Shown one piece after another: positions 1-10,662 of a DNA stretch of 10,662 nucleotides (within the stretch, counting starts at the first letter, position 1; each line of letters starts with the position of its first letter). The stretch lies in assembly GCA_016841005.1 (NCBI GenBank), contig JAEORG010000051.1, positions 1-10,662 of the forward strand, written 5' to 3'. A program made the position numbers and the translations under genes. This stretch comes from Candidatus Thorarchaeota archaeon. GTDB taxonomy: Archaea > Asgardarchaeota > Thorarchaeia > Thorarchaeales > Thorarchaeaceae. The notes beneath the pieces were generated by a model, which was not told the DNA's origin, did not search any database, and saw only the letters and a program-made list of their open reading frames with translations.

Positions 1-1
1 G

Positions 2-190
2 AATAGAGGGTTCCTCAGATTTCCTGGAATGGAAACCCTTCTCTTTCGTTCACCACTCATGTGGCTCCCAACCCAGCTTTCAGGACTATACCACGATGGT
101 ATTTGGTTACCTCTCAAAGGGAAGAAATGGGTGAAGTGGTTCTTAGATGAAACAGAATGGGGAGAACTCTGGAAATCATATAGCGAATAA
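2..190 (+). CDS. C-terminal end of an unidentified protein (5' partial)
   Basis: An open frame enters from the left edge and ends at TAA 188-190, giving 62 residues that cannot be assigned with certainty. The visible part is rich in Trp, Leu and Lys, has no obvious membrane helix, and ends in a basic/aromatic stretch (LPLKGKKWVKWF) followed by an acidic, Trp-containing tail (DETEWGELWKSYSE). The tail is faintly reminiscent of DUF362-type (PF04015) C-termini, but this is an impression from memory and not an assignment. It lies only 15 bases upstream of the UbiA-family gene on the same strand, so it is probably the preceding member of the same operon. I believe it is a real gene because the frame is open to the edge, the protein-like composition is sensible, and the next gene's ribosome-binding site begins just after its stop. 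Confidence 0.6.
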   Translation, partial: NRGFLRFPGMETLLFRSPLMWLPTQLSGLYHDGIWLPLKGKKWVKWFLDETEWGELWKSYSE

Positions 191-192
191 CT

Positions 193-196
193 GGAG
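193..196 (+). promoter_or_regulatory. Shine-Dalgarno site of the UbiA-family gene
   Basis: GGAG lies nine bases before the ATG at 206, in the 15-base gap after the upstream stop codon. It supports that ATG as the start and indicates translation from an operon message, since the gap has no room for an independent promoter. Confidence 0.5.
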
Positions 197-205
197 AGCA
201 TCATC

Positions 206-1165
206 ATGGCGATAAAACCTATCATCAAGCTTATGCGCATACATCAGTGGTACAAAAATCTCTTAGTCTTCCTTCCAATTCTATTCGTAAACTTTCGAGA
301 TCCACTACCTGCAGTATTTAACATCCAACATTATCCTCCCTTAATTATTGGCTTCATTGCTTTCTGTGCTGTATCTAGTGCAGGATATATTTTCAATGAT
401 GTTAAGGATGTAGAAGAGGATGCCGCACATCCTGAGAAAAAAGACAGACCTCTTCCAGCAGGGCAGGTATCTAGACGTCAAGCATTACTCTTTGGTGCAG
501 GATTAATGATTGGAGGACTTGTGCTTTCATTCATCAATAGCATATTTTTCCTAATGGTGATATTCTATATCATCAACTCGCAGGCATACAACTATTACCT
601 AAGGAACTACGCTGTAGTAGATGGGGTGACAATTGGAATTGGATTTATTATTCGTGCAATCTCTGGAGCATTTCTAATAGGAGTTCCATTTACATCTTGG
701 TTGGTTCTTGGTGTTTTCTTCGTAGCATTAGTCCTAGGGTTTAGCAAGAGAAAGAATGAGCTCTTTCTTCTCGGCGATGAAGCCGCACAGCATAAGAAAG
801 TGTTTACCCAATACAACATGGAATTCTTAAATCATGCAGTTGTGACATCAGCAACCTGGATAGTAATCTTCTACACCCTTTATGTGTATCAGAACTTTGG
901 TGAATACTTCGAAACTCAACCTGTTATACTAACAGTTCCTATTGTCGCTGGGATTGTTCTAAGGTATACATTCCTGGTTTTTATTGGTCATCCAATAGGT
1001 AGAAAACCACTGCTCGCAGTAAAGGACAAAGGCATGTTATTTGGTATCATTATCTTTGGAGCAGTTCTAGCAATCACGATTTTACGAATTGGTGATGAAA
1101 CCATCTGGACAATTCTGTTCACCTTCTTACAGGGATTAGTACCTCCACCTCCTGTTTTACCATAG
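206..1165 (+). CDS. UbiA-family polyprenyl-phosphate phosphoribosyltransferase-like membrane protein
   Basis: A 319-residue polytopic membrane protein with about nine hydrophobic helices. The first aspartate-rich motif of the UbiA superfamily is intact: N64-D65-x-x-D68-x-x-x-D72, followed by HPEKKDRPLPAG (75-86). The rest follows the decaprenyl-phosphate 5-phosphoribosyltransferase (DPPR synthase, Rv3806c) subfamily as I recall it: R-x-x-Q/H-W-x-K-N near the N-terminus (11-18), AVVDG (136-140), IRAISGA (150-156), Trp165 and the basic KRKNEL segment (181-186) in place of a second classical Asp-rich motif. Family members transfer phosphoribose from PRPP to polyprenyl phosphate, with Mg2+ held by the NDxxD region, at the cytoplasmic membrane face. 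The exact acceptor lipid here is inferred. The following PHP phosphoesterase and flippase-like genes fit the same pathway. An alternative is another UbiA reaction such as geranylgeranylglyceryl-phosphate prenyl transfer, which fits the motifs less well. The C-terminus is an odd proline run (PPPPVLP). Confidence 0.85.
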   Translation: MAIKPIIKLMRIHQWYKNLLVFLPILFVNFRDPLPAVFNIQHYPPLIIGFIAFCAVSSAGYIFNDVKDVEEDAAHPEKKDRPLPAGQVSRRQALLFGAGLMIGGLVLSFINSIFFLMVIFYIINSQAYNYYLRNYAVVDGVTIGIGFIIRAISGAFLIGVPFTSWLVLGVFFVALVLGFSKRKNELFLLGDEAAQHKKVFTQYNMEFLNHAVVTSATWIVIFYTLYVYQNFGEYFETQPVILTVPIVAGIVLRYTFLVFIGHPIGRKPLLAVKDKGMLFGIIIFGAVLAITILRIGDETIWTILFTFLQGLVPPPPVLP

Positions 1166-1168
1166 GTG
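1164..1168 (+). promoter_or_regulatory. Shine-Dalgarno site deciding the PHP gene start
   Basis: AGGTG overlaps the TAG stop of the UbiA gene and sits six bases before the ATG at 1175. It makes 1175 more likely than the in-frame GTG at 1166, which would lie inside the ribosome-binding site itself. The arrangement implies translational coupling to the upstream gene. Confidence 0.5.
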
Positions 1169-1174
1169 TCTATT

Positions 1175-1849
1175 ATGAGTGACCGTCTCTCTGCATTTGA
1201 TCTTCATATGCACACTCTTCATTCGAAGGACGGTCTAAATCATCCAAGGGATCTCTTTAAACTAATGAAGCACAATGATTTACGAGGTCTCGCACCAACA
1301 GAGCATTGGAGAGCCTCAACTCTCAAGATCATAGAGAGGAATAGTCGATTCATTATTCCTGCATGTGAGTTCAAATGCACTGATTATGGAGAGGTGATAG
1401 GAATGTTCCTCAATGAGGATATTGAGAATCGCTCATTTGAGGAGATTTGTGAGGACATACATGCTCAAGGAGGTCTCGTCATTCTCCCTCATCCCTGTGA
1501 CCCATTTAGAAAACACACCGCTGTAAGACGCGGACTTCCTGAGAGGTTGATATCAAAACATGTGGACCTAATAGAGGGAATCAATTCTCGATGTGTAATT
1601 GACTTATTCAACAAACGTGCTCAGAGGTTGGCAAAACGTCTGAGCAAACCTATGACTGCAGGTAGTGATGGACATTCATTCTTAGAGGTAGGTAATGCCA
1701 AAACATGGCTACAAGATATTGATACTGCAGAGGATATCTACAAAGAGTTGAAGTCGGGAAGAACTCAAATTACAGGTCATAGTTCATTGTTCATTGCACA
1801 TATTCCTACCATGATTTGGCAAAGAGCGAGGAAGATTGCAAATGTCTGA
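1175..1849 (+). CDS. PHP-domain metal-dependent phosphoesterase
   Basis: A soluble 224-residue protein covering a single PHP (polymerase and histidinol phosphatase) domain with no extra modules. The metal-site motifs appear in the expected order: D9-L-H11-M-H13 with S17-x-D19-G, T42-E43-H44 (usually TDH), E65 in a C-E-F strand, H106-P107 in LPHP, E134-G-I-N, and G163-S164-D165-G166-H167. PHP enzymes hydrolyse phosphate esters using a two- or three-metal centre; small stand-alone members include histidinol-phosphatase and nucleotide-phosphate phosphatases, so the substrate cannot be read directly. Placed between a phosphoribosyltransferase-like UbiA and a flippase-like protein, it could remove the 5-phosphate from a lipid-linked phosphoribose, a step for which mycobacteria are thought to use an unrelated PAP2-type phosphatase; this is inference. 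The start at 1175 is chosen for its AGGTG site; the in-frame GTG at 1166 would add three residues. Its 3' end overlaps the next gene by 8 bases. Confidence 0.85.
   Translation: MSDRLSAFDLHMHTLHSKDGLNHPRDLFKLMKHNDLRGLAPTEHWRASTLKIIERNSRFIIPACEFKCTDYGEVIGMFLNEDIENRSFEEICEDIHAQGGLVILPHPCDPFRKHTAVRRGLPERLISKHVDLIEGINSRCVIDLFNKRAQRLAKRLSKPMTAGSDGHSFLEVGNAKTWLQDIDTAEDIYKELKSGRTQITGHSSLFIAHIPTMIWQRARKIANV
1828..1832 (+). promoter_or_regulatory. Shine-Dalgarno site of the flippase-like gene
   Basis: GAGGA lies within the end of the PHP gene, nine bases before the ATG at 1842. It supports that start over the TTG at 1836 or the ATG at 1857 and is consistent with translational coupling of the overlapping genes. 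Confidence 0.45.
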
Positions 1850-2879
1850 AGTTGAAATGGAAAAAGAGAGCAGATCCTTCATTAGTATGGGGAAGTTATT
1901 AGCACTCATCCTAATCGGAGTTGTAATCTATCTTGTGATGTTCCTCTTTGCGAATTGGGAAGAAGTTGTTGCTGCGCTTGCCACTATTGAATGGTGGTGG
2001 GTTGTTCCAGTAATGATGGGTTTTAGTTTTCTCAATTACATTATCAGATATTTCAAGTGGCAATATTATCTTCATAGAATTGGAGTATATTTCTCCCATG
2101 CTGACAGTTTCAGTATATTCCTTGCTGGATTTACGCTAACTGTTAGTCCAGGAAAAATTGGTGAAGCGATTAAGGGATATTTTTGTAGAGACGTCGATGG
2201 CACACCTGTGGCAAAAACTGTACCAGTTGTTGTATCCGAACGATTGACAGATCTCCTTTCAATGGTGATAATTGCAGCATTTACATTTCTATTCCTCTTC
2301 TCTGGAGGAAACCAAATTCTATTGGTCATAGCAGTGGGAGGTATTGTAATTGTAGGTGCATTTGTATTAACTAACAAGACATTTTATAACAAGATTCTGA
2401 AAAGGATGACTTCATTTGGACCATTGAAACAATTCCAAGACAGCTGTGATGTCATAGAAGATACTATGGTGCGAACGTTATCACCAAAACCAATGTTATT
2501 CGGTACAACAATAAGCATTCCAGGTTGGTTTATAGAATGCTTGGAAATGTGGTTGCTTCTGAGTTTATTGACTCAGTCAAGTTTACCAACTCTATCCCCA
2601 GAATCATTACTCCTTCTCGTTCAGGCTACATTCATCCATGCCAGTGCTTCTGCTATAGGTGCAGTTTTCATCATTGCTCCAGCTGGTCTAGGTGCGTATG
2701 AAGTATATGCGTACGCCGCAATGACTGCGTTTGGAATTGCTAAGTCTATTGCGGTTGCTAGTGTCTTTCTCATTCGATTTGTAACACTCTGGTTTAGCGT
2801 GATTGTTGGATTCATTGCGCTTGGAGTTGTAACCAAACGAAACAGAGATAGAAAAGACAAATCCTCCCAGCAAGCTTAA
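1842..2879 (+). CDS. Flippase-like / LPG-synthase-TM (UPF0104) membrane protein
   Basis: A 345-residue integral membrane protein with about eight hydrophobic helices and a charged C-terminal tail (TKRNRDRKDK, 331-340). Features of the LPG_synthase_TM/UPF0104 family (PF03706) are visible: N65-Y-I-I-R-Y-x-K-W in the second helix, the loop T98-L-T-V-S-P-G-K-I-G-E-A-I-K111, V131-S-E-R-L-T-D137, and the late A279-P-A-G-L-G-A-Y-E287 segment. Stand-alone archaeal members are usually annotated as flippase-like; related domains occur in lysylphosphatidylglycerol synthase and in archaeal glycosylation proteins. The catalytic aminoacyl-transferase domain of true LPG synthase is absent, so lipid aminoacylation is unlikely. 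Overlapping the PHP gene and following a UbiA transferase, it probably moves or binds the polyprenyl-linked product across the membrane; this is inferred from context. The start at 1842 is set by GAGGA and an 8-base overlap (ATGTCTGA) with the PHP stop. Confidence 0.85.
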   Translation: MSEVEMEKESRSFISMGKLLALILIGVVIYLVMFLFANWEEVVAALATIEWWWVVPVMMGFSFLNYIIRYFKWQYYLHRIGVYFSHADSFSIFLAGFTLTVSPGKIGEAIKGYFCRDVDGTPVAKTVPVVVSERLTDLLSMVIIAAFTFLFLFSGGNQILLVIAVGGIVIVGAFVLTNKTFYNKILKRMTSFGPLKQFQDSCDVIEDTMVRTLSPKPMLFGTTISIPGWFIECLEMWLLLSLLTQSSLPTLSPESLLLLVQATFIHASASAIGAVFIIAPAGLGAYEVYAYAAMTAFGIAKSIAVASVFLIRFVTLWFSVIVGFIALGVVTKRNRDRKDKSSQQA

Positions 2880-2902
2880 AACATAACCCTTACTCGATGC
2901 GA

Positions 2903-2908
2903 GAGGTG
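2903..2908 (+). promoter_or_regulatory. Shine-Dalgarno site of tyrS
   Basis: GAGGTG with seven bases to the ATG at 2916 is the strongest ribosome-binding site in the window. The 36-base gap also holds an AT-rich stretch (TTAAAACATAA, from 2877) that could be a weak TATA-like element, but nothing else shows that tyrS has its own promoter. Confidence 0.6.
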
Positions 2909-2915
2909 AGTAGAT

Positions 2916-3929
2916 ATGTCTACACCATTCGAGATAACGATAAGCAATGCAGAAGAAGTGGTAATGGAAGATGAGATCAAACAGATCCTTAAGGATAAAC
3001 CGAATTTCAACTTCTATTATGGAACAGCACCAACTGGTCCTTTCCATTTCGCATATCTTATTCCCTTCAACAAACTAATCCAGCTAGCGGACTTAGGAGG
3101 AAAGGGAACCATACTGCTTGCTGACTATCATGCTCACTTAGATGATCAAAAGACATCATTCGAGTTGATGGAGCTTAGATCCAAATACTATGAAGAATGT
3201 ATACGTGGAGTAATGGGAAAACATGCAAAGAAATTCGAGTACATCCGCGGTTCAACCTACCAACATAAGAAAGACTATGTTGAAGATCTCTACAAGATAG
3301 CTGCGAAGGTCACAACTACACGTGCAAAGAGAGCAGCGAGCGAAGTTGTTAGAATGCGAGGAGATGCAAAAGTATCTGAACTCCTCTATCCTTTACTCCA
3401 GATACTTGATGTGAAGTATTTAGAAGCGGATATCACCGTTGGCGGAATTGATCAACGTAATATCTACATGCTTGGTAGAGAACTCCTTGAATCTGTTAAT
3501 TATCAAAAAGGCGCCTACATCTTCATGCCTCTCCTTCCATCTCTCAAGGGAGGTGGTTCGAAGATGTCAGCAAGTGATCCTCTGTCACATATTCGTGTTA
3601 CTGATACTCCTGAGAATATAATGAGTACAATCAAAAAGGCCTATTGTCCAGCAGGAGATTTGGACCAGAATGCAATAACCGCTACGGTCCGTTACATCAT
3701 CTTCCCAAGAATTGCTAAGATTGAGATTAAAAGGAAAGAGAAATTCGGTGGCGATATTACATTCGATTCAATCGGTGAATTTGAGTCAGCATACTTAGAG
3801 GAAACCATTCACCCAATGGATGTCAAACAATCAGTTGCTGATGCACTGATTGATATTCTAGAACCTGCTCGTACTTATTTCGAGCATCATCCGGACATCT
3901 TACATGAAATTGAGGACACATTTGAATAA
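2916..3929 (+). CDS. tyrS: Tyrosyl-tRNA synthetase, archaeal/eukaryotic type
   Basis: A class I aminoacyl-tRNA synthetase of 337 residues that activates tyrosine with ATP and charges tRNA-Tyr in the cytoplasm. Length and order match the compact archaeal enzymes (about 306 residues in Methanocaldococcus). The HIGH-type motif is H44-F-A-Y47 inside YYGTAPTGPFHFAY (34-47), and the KMSKS loop is K216-M-S-A-S220. Tyrosine-pocket residues align with the archaeal enzyme: Y34, Y158, Q162 and D165, followed by G176-G-I-D-Q-R181. The C-terminal anticodon-binding part has KAYCPAG (241-247), KFGGD (276-280) and H299-P-M-D302-V-K, where D302 aligns with the residue that reads G34. There is no S4 or EMAP-II-like extension. 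The HIGH region and the following ELMELRSKYYE segment resemble eukaryotic TyrRS more than the methanogen form. Start 2916 has a good GAGGTG site. It lies 36 bases after the membrane-protein gene and converges on the giant surface-protein gene. Confidence 0.95.
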   Translation: MSTPFEITISNAEEVVMEDEIKQILKDKPNFNFYYGTAPTGPFHFAYLIPFNKLIQLADLGGKGTILLADYHAHLDDQKTSFELMELRSKYYEECIRGVMGKHAKKFEYIRGSTYQHKKDYVEDLYKIAAKVTTTRAKRAASEVVRMRGDAKVSELLYPLLQILDVKYLEADITVGGIDQRNIYMLGRELLESVNYQKGAYIFMPLLPSLKGGGSKMSASDPLSHIRVTDTPENIMSTIKKAYCPAGDLDQNAITATVRYIIFPRIAKIEIKRKEKFGGDITFDSIGEFESAYLEETIHPMDVKQSVADALIDILEPARTYFEHHPDILHEIEDTFE

Positions 3930-3930
3930 G

Positions 3931-3953
3931 GTGAGGAGCAAGCGCTCATTCAC
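3931..3953. other. Imperfect inverted repeat in the convergent gap
   Basis: Between the stops of tyrS and the giant surface-protein gene, GTGAGGAGC can pair with GCTCATTCAC around an AAGC loop: nine pairs including one G-T, with one bulged A. It fills nearly the whole 25-base gap and could mark the 3' ends of both transcripts. No T-run follows directly on either strand, so it is not a textbook archaeal or bacterial terminator and may be chance. Confidence 0.25.
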
Positions 3954-3954
3954 A

Positions 3955-6900
3955 TTATTCAAGTTTTATCCCTAGACTATCCAACAGTGCTTTAAGATCA
4001 GCTTTTGATAGATTCTTTGCTTCATCAAGTATGATATCAATCTCATCAGGTGACATTCCCTTTGTCAGAAGCTTCTCACGAATCTCTTCCAGATCTTCAG
4101 GAGTCTGCTCTAGAGTAACTTCTTCAACTTCTTTCTCCTCAATCATATCAGCGCGTGCTATATCGTCAGCTCTGCGGGCTTCCTCTTGAGCGATAACTTC
4201 CTTCAGGAAACCAGGACGCTCACTTGATTTCATACGGGCTAAATCAGCACGAAATGCATCGATTTCAATCTGACCAAGTCCTGTTAAGTTGGCAAGATAT
4301 TCTAAAAGCTCCTCAACTTCAGGTACAGATATCTCAATGCTTTCACCAACAATATCATCACGGTCTTTAACAACTCCTGAGGGTTTTAGCTCTTCATTAA
4401 TCATTGCGAGGAGGAGTGTAGAACGTAATGCAACATCAGCTCGAGCTGGTATCTTTCCTTTGTTTAGCTGTTTTATCATTCGATTAATTGCACGGATGAT
4501 CTTTGGAATACTCCATACACGCAAGTATAGCACAATGAGAAGTGATGCTAATATGAGTGCAGAGCCTCCACCGAGTGTCAGAGCCTGTGTGAGCAGTTGT
4601 TCACTCGTAATATCAGAATGTATTTCATAAACAACAACCTGAGAGGAGTAATTTTCCTTTGAAAAAGTCAAAGTGACATAGAAGGTTTGACCTGCATTTA
4701 CAGTCAGCCCAAGCTGATAAACACCATTCTCCTCATCAAAACCAAGATATTCTACTGCACCTTCTGTGAATGAAACGTCAATATTTGCTCCAGTAACTCC
4801 AGCATCATGATCAATATCCCAGTACGTAAGTGTGAGAGTTAGGAGATCTCCTGGGAACGAATCAAGGGTTGTGTTTGTAGTTGTCAATGAAGTAGCAATT
4901 GGTCGAACTATAATATCCAGTGACCATGAGGTTATTGCATAGCGTGATGATGGGAATGAGAGCAGGACACTATAAGTGCCTAGAGGCAAATCACCACGAA
5001 TTAGAAGACTGTAATTACCATTTGGAAGCATTTCTAGTGAAGTAGTACCAAAGAGAGACCAATCTGCGATTCCTTCAATATCTGATATCGTTGAATCATC
5101 GAGAAGACTAACGAGTTGAATGGATATTGAGGATGGTTCGTTGATTGGAGCGTAGAATAATGAAGGAGCAATAATTTCAGCATGAGTAGGTTGAAGAGTT
5201 GCCCATACATTAATCGAGATAGATTCATAGTTGCTCTTTGTAAAGGTGACAATGACCAGGTAGTCCCGAGGTTGTGTCAGGTTAAGTATCAGAGTTATTC
5301 CATATCCTCCATTGCCTATCTCACTGATTGTCCCGTCAGGCCCATCCCAAATGATAGTAATTGTAGCATTCTCAATTCCCATGTTTGACAATGTGTCATT
5401 AAGATTGAAGGAGTATCCAATGGTTTCTAGGTAGTGACCTGATTGCACGGTCTCTATGACTGTCACAGAGGTCGGTCTTAGCAGGATATTCGTCACTATT
5501 AATCGAATATTTGTTGCATAATTCTCCTTTGAGGCAGATAGTCTTAGATAGAGTGACTGCGCAGCAAGCAAACTTGTATTCAATGAAACAAAGTAAGTCC
5601 CGTCCAAGTCCTGTGTTAGATTTCCACTGAGGCTACCAAGAACATATTCTACCAATGCACCGGTTATAGAACCTCCATTAAGTGAGTCATTGTAATGTAC
5701 ACGAAGCTCTATTATATCACCAAAGTAGGCAACAATACTTGTCGGGTTCCCCTCGAGTTCTAGCTGAGTCGCGATTGGATTAATACTGACGCTAATTGCT
5801 AAATCTAGGAAATTATGATTCGGAGCGAATGCAGAAAATGCAAGTGAATATACACCAATCTCAAATCCTGCAGCGCTAATATTGCCATCAAAGAATCCTA
5901 GAGTACCATTTGAGGTTAATACATATACTGTGTTATTCCATTCCATGGTGAGGGATGCACCACTTACTGGTGCATTTGATATTGTATCGTTAAGGTAAAT
6001 GTAGAAATTAACTTCTGAGTCATAGTAGATTGTTATCAAGGCGGTCTCAGGTACAATTTGTCCTGGTGCCTTTGAAACAATTAGCGAAAACGCTCTTTGT
6101 TTTGTTTGATAATATTGTCGCGATGCTGTAATAATGGGCTCATAGTTCCCATAGTCAGAATCTGATGTATCTAAAAGCAGAGTATAAGTCCCATTTCCTA
6201 AATCAGTCATGTCGTACGTTCGAGTATCCCAAAAGATTGTTACATTCATACCATCAATAGGTGCGAAGTAGTTTGTTTCACGCACTACAGCTCTGATGAA
6301 GATTTGTTCGCCCCAATCTGCATAGTAAATGGATTGCTCAACTGTAATCTGAGTGGTTGCAGCTCCCAACAAGATTGTAACAGATATGTTAGCAGTTGCA
6401 TAGAGAGTCTTGGATGATGATATTGAGAATGTATATGTCTGAGCTGTGAGACCAGTAGTATTCAAAGTGAGAGAATATATCCCTGATCCAATCTCCGCAA
6501 ACAATGTCGAAGTGTTTGTCCAACTTGTCGCGAAAATAGCACCTGTAACTGGTAAATCATGATCACTATCTGATAGTGTCAAATTAATTACCATATTTTC
6601 TCCTGCAACAACTCTTCCCGCTGGAGGAATTTCAGCGATTAGAGAAGTTTGGACCAATCTGATGGTTGCAGGAATCTGTGTTGCAGTGCGAGTGGAGTAA
6701 AATGGAATTCCAGTTCGACTAACTGATATGTTGATGAAGATTAATCCTGTTGTTCCGAATTGCGTAGTGGGAATTTCTATCAGATACTGACCATTACCTA
6801 GTTCTTCTATGTAATAGGTAGGTGAACTCGAATTCGAGACTGTGATAATGACTAAGGCACCAACAATTCCATCACTGGTCGAAAAATCGAGGTAATCTAG

Positions 6901-9900
6901 ATAGAGAGAGATATTGTCATAATATGGAGTTGGAGATATTAATGGGAACAATAGCTGAGTTTGGCGCTCGACGGTGCTAGCAACTAAAGAAGTAGTCCGT
7001 TCAGCAAAGTATGGAATTGTTGTGCTACGATTCAAAAGAATATACACAGGATGTGAAGAAACCAAATTCAGATTATCTAATACAGTACTATTGAAACTGA
7101 TCTCATAATAGGTCCCATAGATGTACAATGTGTAGGAGTTGGATGGGATTAATGTGGGACCACTTCCATGACTTAGTTCAATCATGGTCTTATCCAGTGT
7201 AATCAAAAGACCAGTTCCTCGATCTAGATAACGGAACTGAATTGTTATGTTATCCAAGAAGGGAGTAGCTCCAGGAGTTTTCAGAATGACTAATTCAGTT
7301 GGCCGCTTTGTTACTTCTGCATTAACTGAACGGAATGCCTGTTGATAGAATGGCTCACCAGATCTAGTTAGTTGGACAGATATACTGTAGAAATCTGGAT
7401 TCCCGAGTGCAGAACTATTTATCAGAATTGTATAGACGCCATTACCCTCATAGTTAATCCAGTAATTGGTATCTAGAACAAGCACTTCATCTGCTGTTCC
7501 ACAGCTGAGTGAAACTGTAGATGATGGAATGCCCGTTCCTGTCGCATCATCAGTATAGCTCACACTGAATGTGACGTTATCTCCGAAAGGTGTTCTTTCT
7601 GGAGAAGAATAAGTAAGTTGGGTTGACCTCGATAATACGGTAAATGAGAACTCGTGGTTTGCATCACTTACGTAATATGACCCAGTATATGTTACTGTTG
7701 CAGTGATTAGGAATGAGCCTGTTGCTCCATAGACAGTTGTATTCAAATCGACAGAGAATAGACCATCTCCCAAGAATACAACACTATAGTTCCCGCTTCC
7801 CACATTTAGTGTCAATGTTCCTGTGAGCCCAACTGAACTATCAGCTATAAGGTCCGTGTATATGAATTGAAGTGTGACTATATCCAAGTACTGCCCAGGA
7901 GTATAATCCCCGAGCTCAAGTTGTGATGAACGCTCAATCACATCAATTGTGAGTGAGTGCAGGAGAATCGCACTATAGAATGGACTTCCTGTCCAGGTAA
8001 TATTCAGATGAAGTGTCTTCAATCCTGTTGAGCCAAACTCCGATGTGTTTATGGTTAGAGTGAATATTCTCGTTGTGGGGTTATATGATATTGAATACAT
8101 CAATGAGCTTTCATTAAGGAGGATACTCAAGCTCGGTGAGTTCTGTATTAATTCAGTACTCAAGAAGTCAACGTAGCTGAATGTGTAAATTGCATCTTCC
8201 CCATATGGTGTGGCTGATGCAGGATTGTAGTCAATGTTGGTGGGTCGTTCCAGAATATTCAGGTTGACCTGTAGTGTCTTGTTTTCATACAGAGGAGATA
8301 CTCCACTCTCCCACATGAAGGCAATATTAAAGCTGAACACACCTGTACTATCTGCCTTTGTAGTGTTGATATGGAATTCGTATACACCAGTAGTTCCGAT
8401 TTCGAAGAAATAGAAATCAGATTGAGCAATAGTATTTCCTCCACCTAGAGGAGATATTATCATGAATACATGATTGGTATCGTTGGATATTCCAAGTGAA
8501 CTAACGATATCGTAGTATACAATGGTAAATGTAATATTATGCAAGTAGTATGAAGCATCTGGTGTGTCATCGAGGTACAAATCTGTTAATCGACCTACTA
8601 TTCTTACAGATGCAGGTATCGTTCGCGGTTCATATTTGTTATACCCAGTCCAACTTATTGAAATTGATAGATTCTTCCAACCTGCTGTCGCCCATTGACT
8701 CGTGGGAATTGTGATGTTGTAGTGCCCGTCTCCAAAGGAGGATACAGCACTAGTAAATGATAATGATGGCAGATCAGATGCAGATACAGATACTGCAACC
8801 TCAAAAGTTCCATTTGTAATTCCGAGGTTCAGGTCAGTGTCTTCGTAAAAGATAAGGACAACTAGGTCATCACCATAGCTGGTTTGTTGGATAACCTGAT
8901 CGAGTGTTAGTTCTGTATTGTGTGGTCGAATTGTAAGTTCCATCTCAATTGTGTGATTTTGTATAGATGGAGCTTTGAAATCCACATGAATTGGATGCAT
9001 CTGAGTAGAATCTGTATCGAGAGTGTATATTGTTATATTGTACTCTCCAGGAGAAATTTCTGAAACAGTATAATTGTAATCTCCAAGACCGTGACTACCG
9101 GTCCAGTTACATGTGATGTAACTTTCCATTCCCTGAAGTGGAATCTCATGATCTGAATCAATCCATTTAACAATAAATGAATCAGCTTGACCTAGCGGGA
9201 TTTCCAATGTATTCTGGATGTAATCCAATCTTGTATAGAGTTCTCTGACCTCGAAACCTAAATTGAATGTCGTTGGAACGACAAATGATGAGTTTCCAGA
9301 TATCTGAATTTTGTATTGGCCCAAAGGTGCTGTGCTTGTATTTAGCCAGAATCTATAGTCACCGGGAGATCCCGCTACTGGTGCGACGGTCCAAGTTTCT
9401 GTCCAATTACAAGAGAGAGTTGCTGAATCTAAGTTAGTACCAAAATAATCTCGGAATTTTATAACGAAAGTCTGATTATCGCCTAAAGGACCATTTATCG
9501 TAGTAGTCGCTGGCTCGACGATTATCATGGTTCCGAGTAGGTTGACATTTAAGGTTAAAGCATAATATTGAGAATCAAAGTAATCATTGTTCCAATTTAG
9601 ATTTAACAAATACTGACCAGAGGAACTGAGTTCGCTTGAGTCCAATGTTATGACATATACACCATTATCATATCCGAGATATTTTGTACCAGTTGTCCAA
9701 TTAACGGATAATTGACCACGAGATGCCACGACATCTGGAATATCACTATCATTGACTTGAATCTTAATCGAGAATAGATCTGGATAAGTCACATTTGTGA
9801 TACCCGTGCCTACTGCATCGCTAGGACTCAGTAGGGCGAGTATGGACTTATGAATTACTTTGAAACTTCTGCGGAAGAATCCTGTTTCATTCCATGAGCT

Positions 9901-10662
9901 TCCTGCAACACTGTTGTTCGAGAATGCTTGAAATATCCAATTACCTGCAGATGCATTACCACTGAAAGAGAGTGTAGAAGAGTTCGCAAAACCATTGACA
10001 TCTACAGTTGCAATTTCAGAATACCATAATGCACCTGATGGGTCAAAAATCGAGATATTAACACTTGAACCAACGAAACGTGAATCGAAAACTGTAGTAA
10101 ATTCGATGTCGTTGTCCATTCGTACGTCGATGAACTGATCTGTAACCCCAGATGTAACATTCTTCATCAATACATCTGTAATCATATTCAATCCCTGACT
10201 CTCTATTAACCAGTGGCCTTCTGGGTCAAGTGTCTTGAATGAACTGATATTAGCGTACCATTGTCCCTCATCCCACGAATAAGTGTAATTTACTTCGGTG
10301 AGTCGCGGGGAACCAACCCAATACACATCTCTGTAGACAGGGAGCGAGATGTTATAGTAGAAGCGATTTTCATATCCAGTTGGTGGATTCACATCAAACC
10401 AAGTGGTGTAGTTCACGAGAGTGGCATTTCCCACTATGAAGTTCTCACCGAGTGCTGATGAATCAAATGAATAAGTGGTCGTTTTTGTACCTGTTGCATA
10501 GAGATTTGTCTGCACATCAAAATCAACTCTGATGTCACGATTTGGATCTGGGACACTAGGTGTGGGAGTCCAAGTGAAATTGACTTGAAGTGGGTTTGTC
10601 CAAGATTCGCTACTTGCAGGATAATCAACCAGATAACCAGTTCCGTTTATAGTTGAACTTCC
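3955..10662 (-). CDS. Giant tandem Ig-like-repeat surface protein with one TM helix and a cytoplasmic tail (5' partial)
   Basis: The frame is open from the right edge to the TAA at 3955-3957, giving 2235 visible residues; the true start and signal peptide lie outside the window. From the N-terminal side it has about 180 Tyr/Trp/Asn-rich residues, a divergent beta domain (about 182-270), 17 tandem Ig-like domains of about 100 residues (about 270-2010), a transmembrane helix (about 2028-2048) and a basic-then-acidic helical tail of about 185 residues. The repeats share a beta pattern: an R-P/S-T-x-L linker, T-P-Y/F-G-D-N then alternating hydrophobics, Y-x-D, G-I-x-x-A, G-N-G-x-Y-x-L-x-L-x-T, G-x-T-G and a closing strand. 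About 60 N-x-S/T sequons and only three cysteines are seen. By topology it is a type I cell-surface protein, perhaps an adhesin, receptor or envelope scaffold. I cannot name its family. It is convergent with tyrS and has its own transcript. Confidence 0.85.
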   Translation of the reverse strand, partial: GSSTINGTGYLVDYPASSESWTNPLQVNFTWTPTPSVPDPNRDIRVDFDVQTNLYATGTKTTTYSFDSSALGENFIVGNATLVNYTTWFDVNPPTGYENRFYYNISLPVYRDVYWVGSPRLTEVNYTYSWDEGQWYANISSFKTLDPEGHWLIESQGLNMITDVLMKNVTSGVTDQFIDVRMDNDIEFTTVFDSRFVGSSVNISIFDPSGALWYSEIATVDVNGFANSSTLSFSGNASAGNWIFQAFSNNSVAGSSWNETGFFRRSFKVIHKSILALLSPSDAVGTGITNVTYPDLFSIKIQVNDSDIPDVVASRGQLSVNWTTGTKYLGYDNGVYVITLDSSELSSSGQYLLNLNWNNDYFDSQYYALTLNVNLLGTMIIVEPATTTINGPLGDNQTFVIKFRDYFGTNLDSATLSCNWTETWTVAPVAGSPGDYRFWLNTSTAPLGQYKIQISGNSSFVVPTTFNLGFEVRELYTRLDYIQNTLEIPLGQADSFIVKWIDSDHEIPLQGMESYITCNWTGSHGLGDYNYTVSEISPGEYNITIYTLDTDSTQMHPIHVDFKAPSIQNHTIEMELTIRPHNTELTLDQVIQQTSYGDDLVVLIFYEDTDLNLGITNGTFEVAVSVSASDLPSLSFTSAVSSFGDGHYNITIPTSQWATAGWKNLSISISWTGYNKYEPRTIPASVRIVGRLTDLYLDDTPDASYYLHNITFTIVYYDIVSSLGISNDTNHVFMIISPLGGGNTIAQSDFYFFEIGTTGVYEFHINTTKADSTGVFSFNIAFMWESGVSPLYENKTLQVNLNILERPTNIDYNPASATPYGEDAIYTFSYVDFLSTELIQNSPSLSILLNESSLMYSISYNPTTRIFTLTINTSEFGSTGLKTLHLNITWTGSPFYSAILLHSLTIDVIERSSQLELGDYTPGQYLDIVTLQFIYTDLIADSSVGLTGTLTLNVGSGNYSVVFLGDGLFSVDLNTTVYGATGSFLITATVTYTGSYYVSDANHEFSFTVLSRSTQLTYSSPERTPFGDNVTFSVSYTDDATGTGIPSSTVSLSCGTADEVLVLDTNYWINYEGNGVYTILINSSALGNPDFYSISVQLTRSGEPFYQQAFRSVNAEVTKRPTELVILKTPGATPFLDNITIQFRYLDRGTGLLITLDKTMIELSHGSGPTLIPSNSYTLYIYGTYYEISFNSTVLDNLNLVSSHPVYILLNRSTTIPYFAERTTSLVASTVERQTQLLFPLISPTPYYDNISLYLDYLDFSTSDGIVGALVIITVSNSSSPTYYIEELGNGQYLIEIPTTQFGTTGLIFINISVSRTGIPFYSTRTATQIPATIRLVQTSLIAEIPPAGRVVAGENMVINLTLSDSDHDLPVTGAIFATSWTNTSTLFAEIGSGIYSLTLNTTGLTAQTYTFSISSSKTLYATANISVTILLGAATTQITVEQSIYYADWGEQIFIRAVVRETNYFAPIDGMNVTIFWDTRTYDMTDLGNGTYTLLLDTSDSDYGNYEPIITASRQYYQTKQRAFSLIVSKAPGQIVPETALITIYYDSEVNFYIYLNDTISNAPVSGASLTMEWNNTVYVLTSNGTLGFFDGNISAAGFEIGVYSLAFSAFAPNHNFLDLAISVSINPIATQLELEGNPTSIVAYFGDIIELRVHYNDSLNGGSITGALVEYVLGSLSGNLTQDLDGTYFVSLNTSLLAAQSLYLRLSASKENYATNIRLIVTNILLRPTSVTVIETVQSGHYLETIGYSFNLNDTLSNMGIENATITIIWDGPDGTISEIGNGGYGITLILNLTQPRDYLVIVTFTKSNYESISINVWATLQPTHAEIIAPSLFYAPINEPSSISIQLVSLLDDSTISDIEGIADWSLFGTTSLEMLPNGNYSLLIRGDLPLGTYSVLLSFPSSRYAITSWSLDIIVRPIATSLTTTNTTLDSFPGDLLTLTLTYWDIDHDAGVTGANIDVSFTEGAVEYLGFDEENGVYQLGLTVNAGQTFYVTLTFSKENYSSQVVVYEIHSDITSEQLLTQALTLGGGSALILASLLIVLYLRVWSIPKIIRAINRMIKQLNKGKIPARADVALRSTLLLAMINEELKPSGVVKDRDDIVGESIEISVPEVEELLEYLANLTGLGQIEIDAFRADLARMKSSERPGFLKEVIAQEEARRADDIARADMIEEKEVEEVTLEQTPEDLEEIREKLLTKGMSPDEIDIILDEAKNLSKADLKALLDSLGIKLE
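3958..4512 (-). other. Cytoplasmic tail of the giant surface protein
   Basis: About 185 residues follow the membrane helix and differ sharply from the ectodomain: Lys/Arg/Glu/Asp-rich, few aromatics, apparently all helical. In order there is a basic amphipathic juxtamembrane helix (KIIRAINRMIKQLNKGK), a segment with LLLAMINEEL, a block around VPEVEELLEYLANL, a charged helix (EVIAQEEARRADDIARAD), an acidic linker (EEKEVEEV), and a compact C-terminal helical unit of about 45 residues from PEDLEEI to the end, containing GMSPDEID and SKADLKALLDSLG. I recognise no named domain; the last unit superficially recalls short helical modules such as SHOCT or UBA-like folds, without conserved residues to prove it. 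Confidence 0.6.
4519..4581 (-). other. Single transmembrane helix of the giant surface protein
   Basis: The codons for TLGGGSALILASLLIVLYLR form the only long uncharged hydrophobic run in the visible protein. It is followed by Arg, Trp and a Lys/Arg-rich stretch, so the positive-inside rule puts the repeats outside and the tail in the cytoplasm. Confidence 0.85.
4628..9865 (-). repeat. Array of 17 diverged Ig-like protein repeats
   Basis: Seventeen units can be delimited by eye, with their strand-A/B anchors (TPYGDN or equivalent) near 9790, 9485, 9190, 8870, 8550, 8205, 7885, 7590, 7260, 6925, 6595, 6315, 6022, 5720, 5430, 5135 and 4845, a mean spacing of about 309 bases. Units 6-10 close with a T/S-G-x-P-F-Y-type motif, while most of units 11-17 close with S-K/R-x-x-Y followed by a beta strand. 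The repeats are clear at protein level but strongly diverged in DNA, so this is old duplication, not a recent satellite-like expansion. Confidence 0.75.
9850..10120 (-). other. Divergent beta domain preceding the repeat array
   Basis: This segment (starting near RMDNDIEF and including VNISIFDPSGALWY, a NASAGNWIFQAF strand and a following NNS) has the alternating pattern of a macroglobulin/MG2-like or Ig-like domain: an extracellular strand, a D-P-S-G turn, then G-N-W-x-F-x-A. It lacks the TPYGDN and GNGxY anchors of the 17 repeats, so it is treated separately. The assignment to an MG2-like fold is tentative. Confidence 0.35.

Follow-up and report, generated by a model that had tools for sequence, protein, structure and literature searches.

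In mycobacteria, the pathway to decaprenyl-phospho-arabinose (DPA) comprises the phosphoribosyltransferase Rv3806c, the PAP2-fold phosphatase Rv3807c, the pair DprE1/DprE2 and Rv3789. A bacterial scheme for pentofuranoses, consisting of polyprenyl phosphoribose synthase, phosphatase and flippase, has been published, with HAD and other phosphatase types in use and Rv3807c being unrelated to the HAD phosphatases (PMC11127046). In this study, a DNA stretch of 10,662 nucleotides from a Candidatus Thorarchaeota archaeon (GCA_016841005.1, contig JAEORG010000051.1, positions 1 to 10,662; referred to as the window) was analyzed regarding a four-gene operon encoding a DUF362 protein, a UbiA-family protein, a PHP-fold phosphoesterase and a UPF0104 membrane protein. 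Based on sequences, conserved gene order, residues, a phylogenetic tree and predicted folds, we consider it reasonably probable that this operon serves to produce and export a pentofuranose linked to polyprenyl phosphate. Since the bacterial scheme is published and two Thorarchaeota relatives of the UbiA protein (P0022, P0053) are named decaprenyl-phosphate phosphoribosyltransferase by NCBI, the operon is regarded as an archaeal variant. An earlier note on this DNA had envisaged a new version of the pathway; the archaeal variant stands, but the general scheme had already been described for bacteria (PMC11127046). Among the literature matches listed, no description of an archaeal decaprenyl-phospho-ribose 5-phosphate (DPPR) synthase pathway or of a link between UbiA and DUF362 was found, and the excerpt of a haloarchaeal genome paper contains the enzyme name of DPPR synthase (PMC4866403).

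Operon layout and the UbiA-family protein

The operon comprises the following genes:

2..190, plus strand: 3' end of a DUF362 gene (62 codons and stop; PF04015); the operon starts with this gene, which is truncated at the window edge
206..1165, plus strand: UbiA-family membrane protein of 319 aa, predicted DPPR-synthase-like phosphoribosyltransferase (NF008977, PDB 8j8j, tree, residues)
1175..1849, plus strand: PHP-fold metal phosphoesterase of 224 aa, proposed 5-phosphate phosphatase (PF13263; alternative GTG start at 1166)
1842..2879, plus strand: UPF0104 / LPG_synthase_TM membrane protein of 345 aa, proposed flippase (PF03706, TIGR00374)

Open reading frames, translations and Pfam searches confirmed coordinates, motifs and families of the UbiA, PHP and UPF0104 genes as given in the earlier note. 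Their order is real, but the conserved unit begins one gene earlier, with the DUF362 gene that had been overlooked. The ATG at 1175 is the start used in the database record of the same PHP protein (P0126), and the UPF0104 gene start overlaps the PHP stop (ATG at 1842, or alternatively TTG at 1836 for 347 aa). The closest named database proteins to the window genes originate from Candidatus Thorarchaeota metagenome-assembled genomes. In the following, 'class' denotes the 47 genomes in the class of G003, taken as Thorarchaeota from named members, and 'phylum' the 227 genomes including this class, taken as Asgard archaea from named members.

In the proposed mechanism, the UbiA protein would transfer 5-phosphoribose from phosphoribosyl pyrophosphate (PRPP) to a membrane polyprenyl or dolichyl phosphate, after which the PHP enzyme would strip the 5-phosphate at the cytoplasmic face. 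The DUF362 protein might then alter the sugar, perhaps epimerizing a hydroxyl as mycobacterial DprE1/DprE2 do, and the UPF0104 protein would flip the lipid-sugar to the outside, where the pentose would be added to a surface glycan by a GT-C transferase from another locus. Judged from sequence, the case is strong for the first of these four steps, fair for the second and the last, and weak to fair for the third.

The UbiA protein belongs to PF01040 (85.3 bits) and its translation contains the DPPR-synthase motifs. Among NCBIfam models, that of PRK12324 (NF008977) gave 215 bits, below its cut-off of 234, compared to at most 47 bits for all models other than PRK12324, PRK08238 and PRK12884 (4-hydroxybenzoate octaprenyltransferase 47, geranylgeranylglyceryl phosphate geranylgeranyltransferase 36). 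The Corynebacterium glutamicum control also remained below this cut-off, which was reached by the copies of archaeon nzgw40 (L006, 234.4 bits) and a Brocadiia bacterium (L007, 250.7 bits). Because the cut-off was missed, the window protein is filed as DPPR-synthase-like (DPPRS-like) and not as a member of NF008977. The best match in the PDB was Rv3806c (8j8j, E 3.1e-26), with digeranylgeranylglyceryl phosphate synthase (DGGGPS) at E 2.3e-7.

Furthermore, the 13 residues of Rv3806c contacting PRPP and the lipid phosphate (PMC10994848) were compared by alignment. Ten are identical in the window protein (R22, K28, Y70, N73, D77, K87, R90, Y138, K191, K208; Rv3806c numbering), two are conservatively changed (K143R, Y157F) and one, the ribose contact Q135, is replaced by S and was kept in no other group tested, including L006 and L007. 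Retention of PRPP contacts, as expected for the assignment in the earlier note, was accordingly found at the level of the alignment instead of a docked model. The Y157 position is F in some mycobacteria, and K28, Y70 and K191 contact the 5-phosphate or the lipid phosphate (PMC10994848). These three residues were kept in all 120 listed close relatives, of which the named ones are almost exclusively Thorarchaeota, and in all 39 other phylum loci; K87 was kept in 120/120 and 38/39, respectively, and K208 in just 9 of the 120. At the positions of K28, Y70, K191 and K87, the residues are I, N, A and a gap in nine DGGGPS-like paralogues and A, N, L and D in three MenA-like ones, both labels being assigned from motifs and tree.

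In the phylogenetic tree (46 rows), the window protein, Rv3806c, bacterial and other archaeal copies form a group of 34 rows (support 97/94), separate from the DGGGPS-like (100/98) and MenA-like (100/100) groups; branches are long for Rv3806c and some of the bacterial rows. The DPPR-synthase-like assignment of the UbiA protein has therefore survived phylogeny. From 19 paralogue regions (L119-L137), L124, L134, L135 and L136 were dropped since no reading frame passed the motif filter, and the residue alignment also omitted L137, L008 and L095 (weak UbiA, G212). L129 and L131, two divergent paralogues, sit on a long branch within the DPPRS group and keep Y70, with K28 changed to R and K191 to F. 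They represent the UbiA copies, of the NDI.D...KPLARG type, of two class genomes without the operon (G038, G014), both mostly one large contig. Taken together, it is highly probable, as judged from these comparisons, that the UbiA protein makes polyprenyl-phosphate-ribose 5-phosphate.

Gene order within and beyond the class

Within the class, PHP was found in 37, DPPRS-like UbiA in 36 (by eye; 43 genomes have some UbiA match, weaker paralogue matches being dropped) and UPF0104 in 38 of the 47 genomes (E <= 1e-3). UbiA adjoins PHP on one strand in all 35 genomes having both, and DUF362 on the same strand in all 35 having that pair. UPF0104 comes next after PHP in 35 of the 37 genomes bearing PHP, with contig ends in the other two (by eye). 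The three-gene order described in the earlier note is hence conserved in relatives, and UbiA-PHP-UPF0104 in the order of the window was also observed in G104 outside the class. G038, whose 2.6 Mb genome is represented by a contig of 2.58 Mb, yielded neither DUF362 nor PHP nor a DPPRS-like UbiA, and its flippase is a remnant of 207 aa; the operon was lost together as a unit.

In the phylum, UbiA was detected in 114 genomes (1e-15; a few, e.g., G038, G133 and G212, are weak or paralogous), PHP in 115 (1e-15; many unlinked) and DUF362 in 122 (1e-40). Outside the class, 20 of the 78 genomes with UbiA possess PHP, adjoining UbiA in 11 of them, and 70 possess DUF362, which adjoins UbiA in 7, lies within 15 kb of it in 38, is on another contig in 23 and far away in 2. 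In total, UbiA and DUF362 occur together in 105 of the 114 UbiA-bearing phylum genomes (Fisher p 7.5e-35, uncorrected for relatedness). In a second archaeal phylum, that of G006 (194 genomes of 0.6-2.1 Mb), UbiA was found in 47 (1e-20), DUF362 in 23 (1e-40) and both in 20 genomes, the distance between them being below 300 bp in 11 and up to 2 kb in 16, with different contigs in 4 and varying orientations. DUF362 is tied to UbiA across archaea more widely than PHP is.

The window phosphoesterase scored 55 bits against PF13263, above cut-off, and 20.8 bits against PF02811 (cut-off 26.4). It has the PHP fold with its metal-ligand set and not a HAD or PAP2 fold, and its likeness in role to those phosphatases is one of genomic position. 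Directly after UbiA, a HAD protein with DxD and GDxxxD motifs was observed in G143, G145 and G147 (L084, L085, L093; L084 copy scanned, PF13419 90 bits). Moreover, among 41 UbiA loci of the second phylum, PHP is nearby in 7 and PAP2 in 12, never both (PAP2 counted by cluster, with 41 and 57.6 bits for the two copies scanned at a cut-off of 27.2), and PHP goes with DUF362 (6 of 16 loci with DUF362 versus 1 of 25 without, p 0.009). PHP, HAD or PAP2 can occupy the place beside UbiA, and this interchange, being expected of a phosphatase step, provides the best evidence for the role of PHP. That the PHP enzyme removes the 5-phosphate of the lipid-linked ribose is considered probable; the phosphatase assignment of the earlier note is backed by gene context.

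The UPF0104 protein scored 138.6 bits against PF03706 (cut-off 33.4) and 73.1 bits against TIGR00374 (cut-off 43.2). Its assignment as flippase is supported for the Thorarchaeota class and two further genomes, namely G104, with the gene order of the window, and G103, where a PHP and a UPF0104 relative neighbour each other about 4 kb upstream of UbiA. That it flips the lipid-sugar appears somewhat likely.

In other Asgard loci, a PF00953 glycosyl transferase cluster (Alg7-like by assigned label; one scanned) was present in 19 of 43, in many of them two genes upstream of UbiA. Near UbiA in the second phylum, 17 of 41 loci have a PMT-type GT-C family at a distance of at most five genes (one copy scanned, 52 bits against PF13231); small EamA-type transporters occur in 3 loci (pairs in two) and a polysaccharide-exporter-type protein in 3. 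As further observations, an M48-type membrane peptidase family occurs in 28 of the 43 other loci (L061-L098), mostly just upstream of UbiA (one copy scanned), and a cis-prenyltransferase (PF01255, one scanned) in L069-L071.

The DUF362 protein and competing explanations

The DUF362 tail in the window is identical in 59 of 62 residues to the C-terminus of the full-length protein encoded at the same place in G002, which matches PF04015 alone (69.1 bits, cut-off 24) and does not reach the LarA profile PF09861. For L002, a full-length relative, the predicted model shows a LarA-like fold. Comparison with LarA by hhalign gave probabilities of 1 and 5 per cent, and homology was not seen at profile level; the DUF362 profile retrieved weak thiolase matches alone from PDB sequences (E 0.57) and a single DUF362 sequence retrieved no PDB match. 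K165 and H180, candidate equivalents of the Lys that binds the nickel-pincer cofactor and of the Ni-ligand His in LarA, are invariant in 69 aligned sequences with LarA-like spacing, in a register not backed by profile alignment, and equivalents of LarA H108 and D72 were not evident by eye. LarC was considered as an indicator of a nickel-pincer nucleotide (NPN) enzyme and rejected as discriminating evidence, since it is present in 187 of 227 phylum genomes with or without DUF362. In the Brocadiia bacterium, a LarC gene is located two genes away from the UbiA-DUF362 pair (L007:4212-5402); this proximity was likewise rejected as discriminating because that genome also has LarA. Of 14 genomes tried, 10 gave a match to LarA (PF09861), the four without one being G002, G006, G283 and G354.

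Further observations concern the family itself. Inteins interrupt DUF362 at the conserved KTHGHT motif (L040:11820-13382, L055:8910-11675, P0307, P0312 and split matches in G001 and G043; PF14890 in L040, P0307 and P0312, the others deduced from inserted or split frames). The sole NCBIfam model touching two DUF362 proteins scanned was NF052623 (Npun_F2552 family; weak, 33-38 bits, cut-off 500), the name of which presumably points to cyanobacteria. Many cyanobacteria make NPN without LarA (PMC11796402).

That DUF362 modifies the lipid-linked sugar is a tentative proposal to which we give slightly less than even chances. Its specific form, a one-enzyme epimerase with NPN or a similar hidden-redox cofactor that converts polyprenyl-phosphate-ribose to another pentofuranose and replaces DprE1/DprE2, is unlikely on present evidence. 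We know of no NPN-type enzyme acting on a lipid-linked sugar rather than on a 2-hydroxy acid, and DUF362 would be the first if this were true.

Several observations weigh against the proposed pentofuranose pathway. Besides the missed NF008977 cut-off, the lost Q135 contact and the rarely kept K208, no PHP relative at E <= 1e-15 was found in 58 of the 78 UbiA genomes outside the class, and neither PHP nor PAP2 is nearby in 22 of 41 second-phylum loci. Substrate assignments of both PHP and UPF0104 rest on gene context and are rated as fair. Some of the synteny in the class reflects general conservation of the region, because genes upstream of DUF362 (PIN, SLOG, calcineurin-like phosphatase) are conserved as well. 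The operon moreover contains no GT-C transferase or pentose acceptor; neither a MATE flippase nor a GT136 GT-C was found among the window genes or the class-locus neighbour clusters scanned, no genome-wide search having been made.

Of the competing explanations, a plain lipid-phosphate-ribose pathway, in which UbiA, PHP and UPF0104 act as proposed and the linked DUF362 has an unrelated role, is given a minor but appreciable chance. The first, second and fourth steps work without DUF362, which is missing within five genes of UbiA in 25 of the 41 second-phylum loci, and both the profile comparison with LarA and the common LarC background fit this explanation. It is opposed by the adjacency of DUF362 to UbiA in two archaeal phyla and one bacterium, with the two genes arranged in several orders and orientations, as well as by their co-occurrence in the Asgard genomes described above, kinship being uncorrected. 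A different end product, namely a membrane lipid or head group that carries the ribose and does not serve as glycan donor, is improbable. MprF moves lysyl-phosphatidylglycerol, and UPF0104 would move the product in a similar manner; the protein weakly matches the MprF model NF033480 (25 bits, cut-off 600) and the operon is devoid of glycosyltransferases, but the PMT-type GT-C and PF00953 families near UbiA in other archaea argue for a glycan donor. That UbiA is an ordinary prenyltransferase in a chance cluster, of the DGGGP synthase, quinone or heme type, would agree with PF01040 membership and with the name 4-hydroxybenzoate polyprenyltransferase given to many relatives by JGI. NCBIfam scores, PDB match, tree and contact residues are all contrary and led us to reject these identities, and a separate DGGGPS-like paralogue exists in nine class genomes sampled, leaving this explanation with hardly any probability.

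Neighbouring genes, implications and comparison with known systems

Downstream of the operon, the window contains two further features:

2916..3929, plus strand: tyrosyl-tRNA synthetase (TyrRS) gene, directly downstream of the UPF0104 gene
3955..10662, minus strand: giant surface protein, C-terminal 2235 aa, a neighbour outside the proposed pathway, cut by the window edge

By eye, about 21 of the 47 class genomes have TyrRS next downstream of the operon, and about 11 have an inverted tRNA-synthetase-Ib paralogue (33-37% identical) in its place. The giant surface protein features 65 N-glycosylation sequons (N-x-S/T; 27.5 on average after shuffling, SD 4.5) and a late hydrophobic segment, and has a relative in 16 of 21 clustered sequences (20 loci and the window). 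It is a conceivable candidate for a glycan acceptor.

Asgard archaea are the closest known prokaryotic relatives of eukaryotes, and to our knowledge little is known about their surface-sugar synthesis. The module predicts pentofuranose in Asgard surface glycans and suggests that, in archaea, phosphatases of three unrelated families fill one and the same slot of the pathway. The large DUF362 family, so far named just as a domain of unknown function, gains a concrete testable role and becomes a candidate user of the nickel-pincer cofactor in genomes making it without LarA. The users of NPN in such genomes represent a described puzzle (PMC11796402); if the proposal is true, DUF362 would belong to the non-LarA NPN proteins being sought and would act within an archaeal UbiA-PHP-DUF362 module.

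Compared to the LarA superfamily of NPN racemases and epimerases, DUF362 is a different Pfam family of the same clan (PMC11770544), and its proposed substrate is a lipid-linked sugar, whereas those reported for LarA relatives are 2-hydroxy acids. The PF03706 membrane domain is shared by the AglD-type UPF0104 proteins, which act in S-layer glycosylation of archaea and carry a fused glycosyltransferase (PMC5898192), whereas the window protein is stand-alone. The three-component GT136 system of Citrobacter youngae (ORF12/14/15) follows the same logic of synthase, phosphatase and flippase with an optional epimerase; there, a HAD domain is fused to UbiA, the flippase is of the MATE type and a GT-C is part of the cluster (PMC11127046), in contrast to the separate PHP, the UPF0104 protein and the operon without GT-C in the window. 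With the mycobacterial DPA pathway, the window operon has in common the family of the first enzyme and most of its substrate residues, as well as a separate phosphatase and a separate flippase. It differs in its archaeal host, in PHP in place of Rv3807c, in UPF0104 in place of the SMR-type Rv3789, and in DUF362 where DprE1/DprE2 would act.

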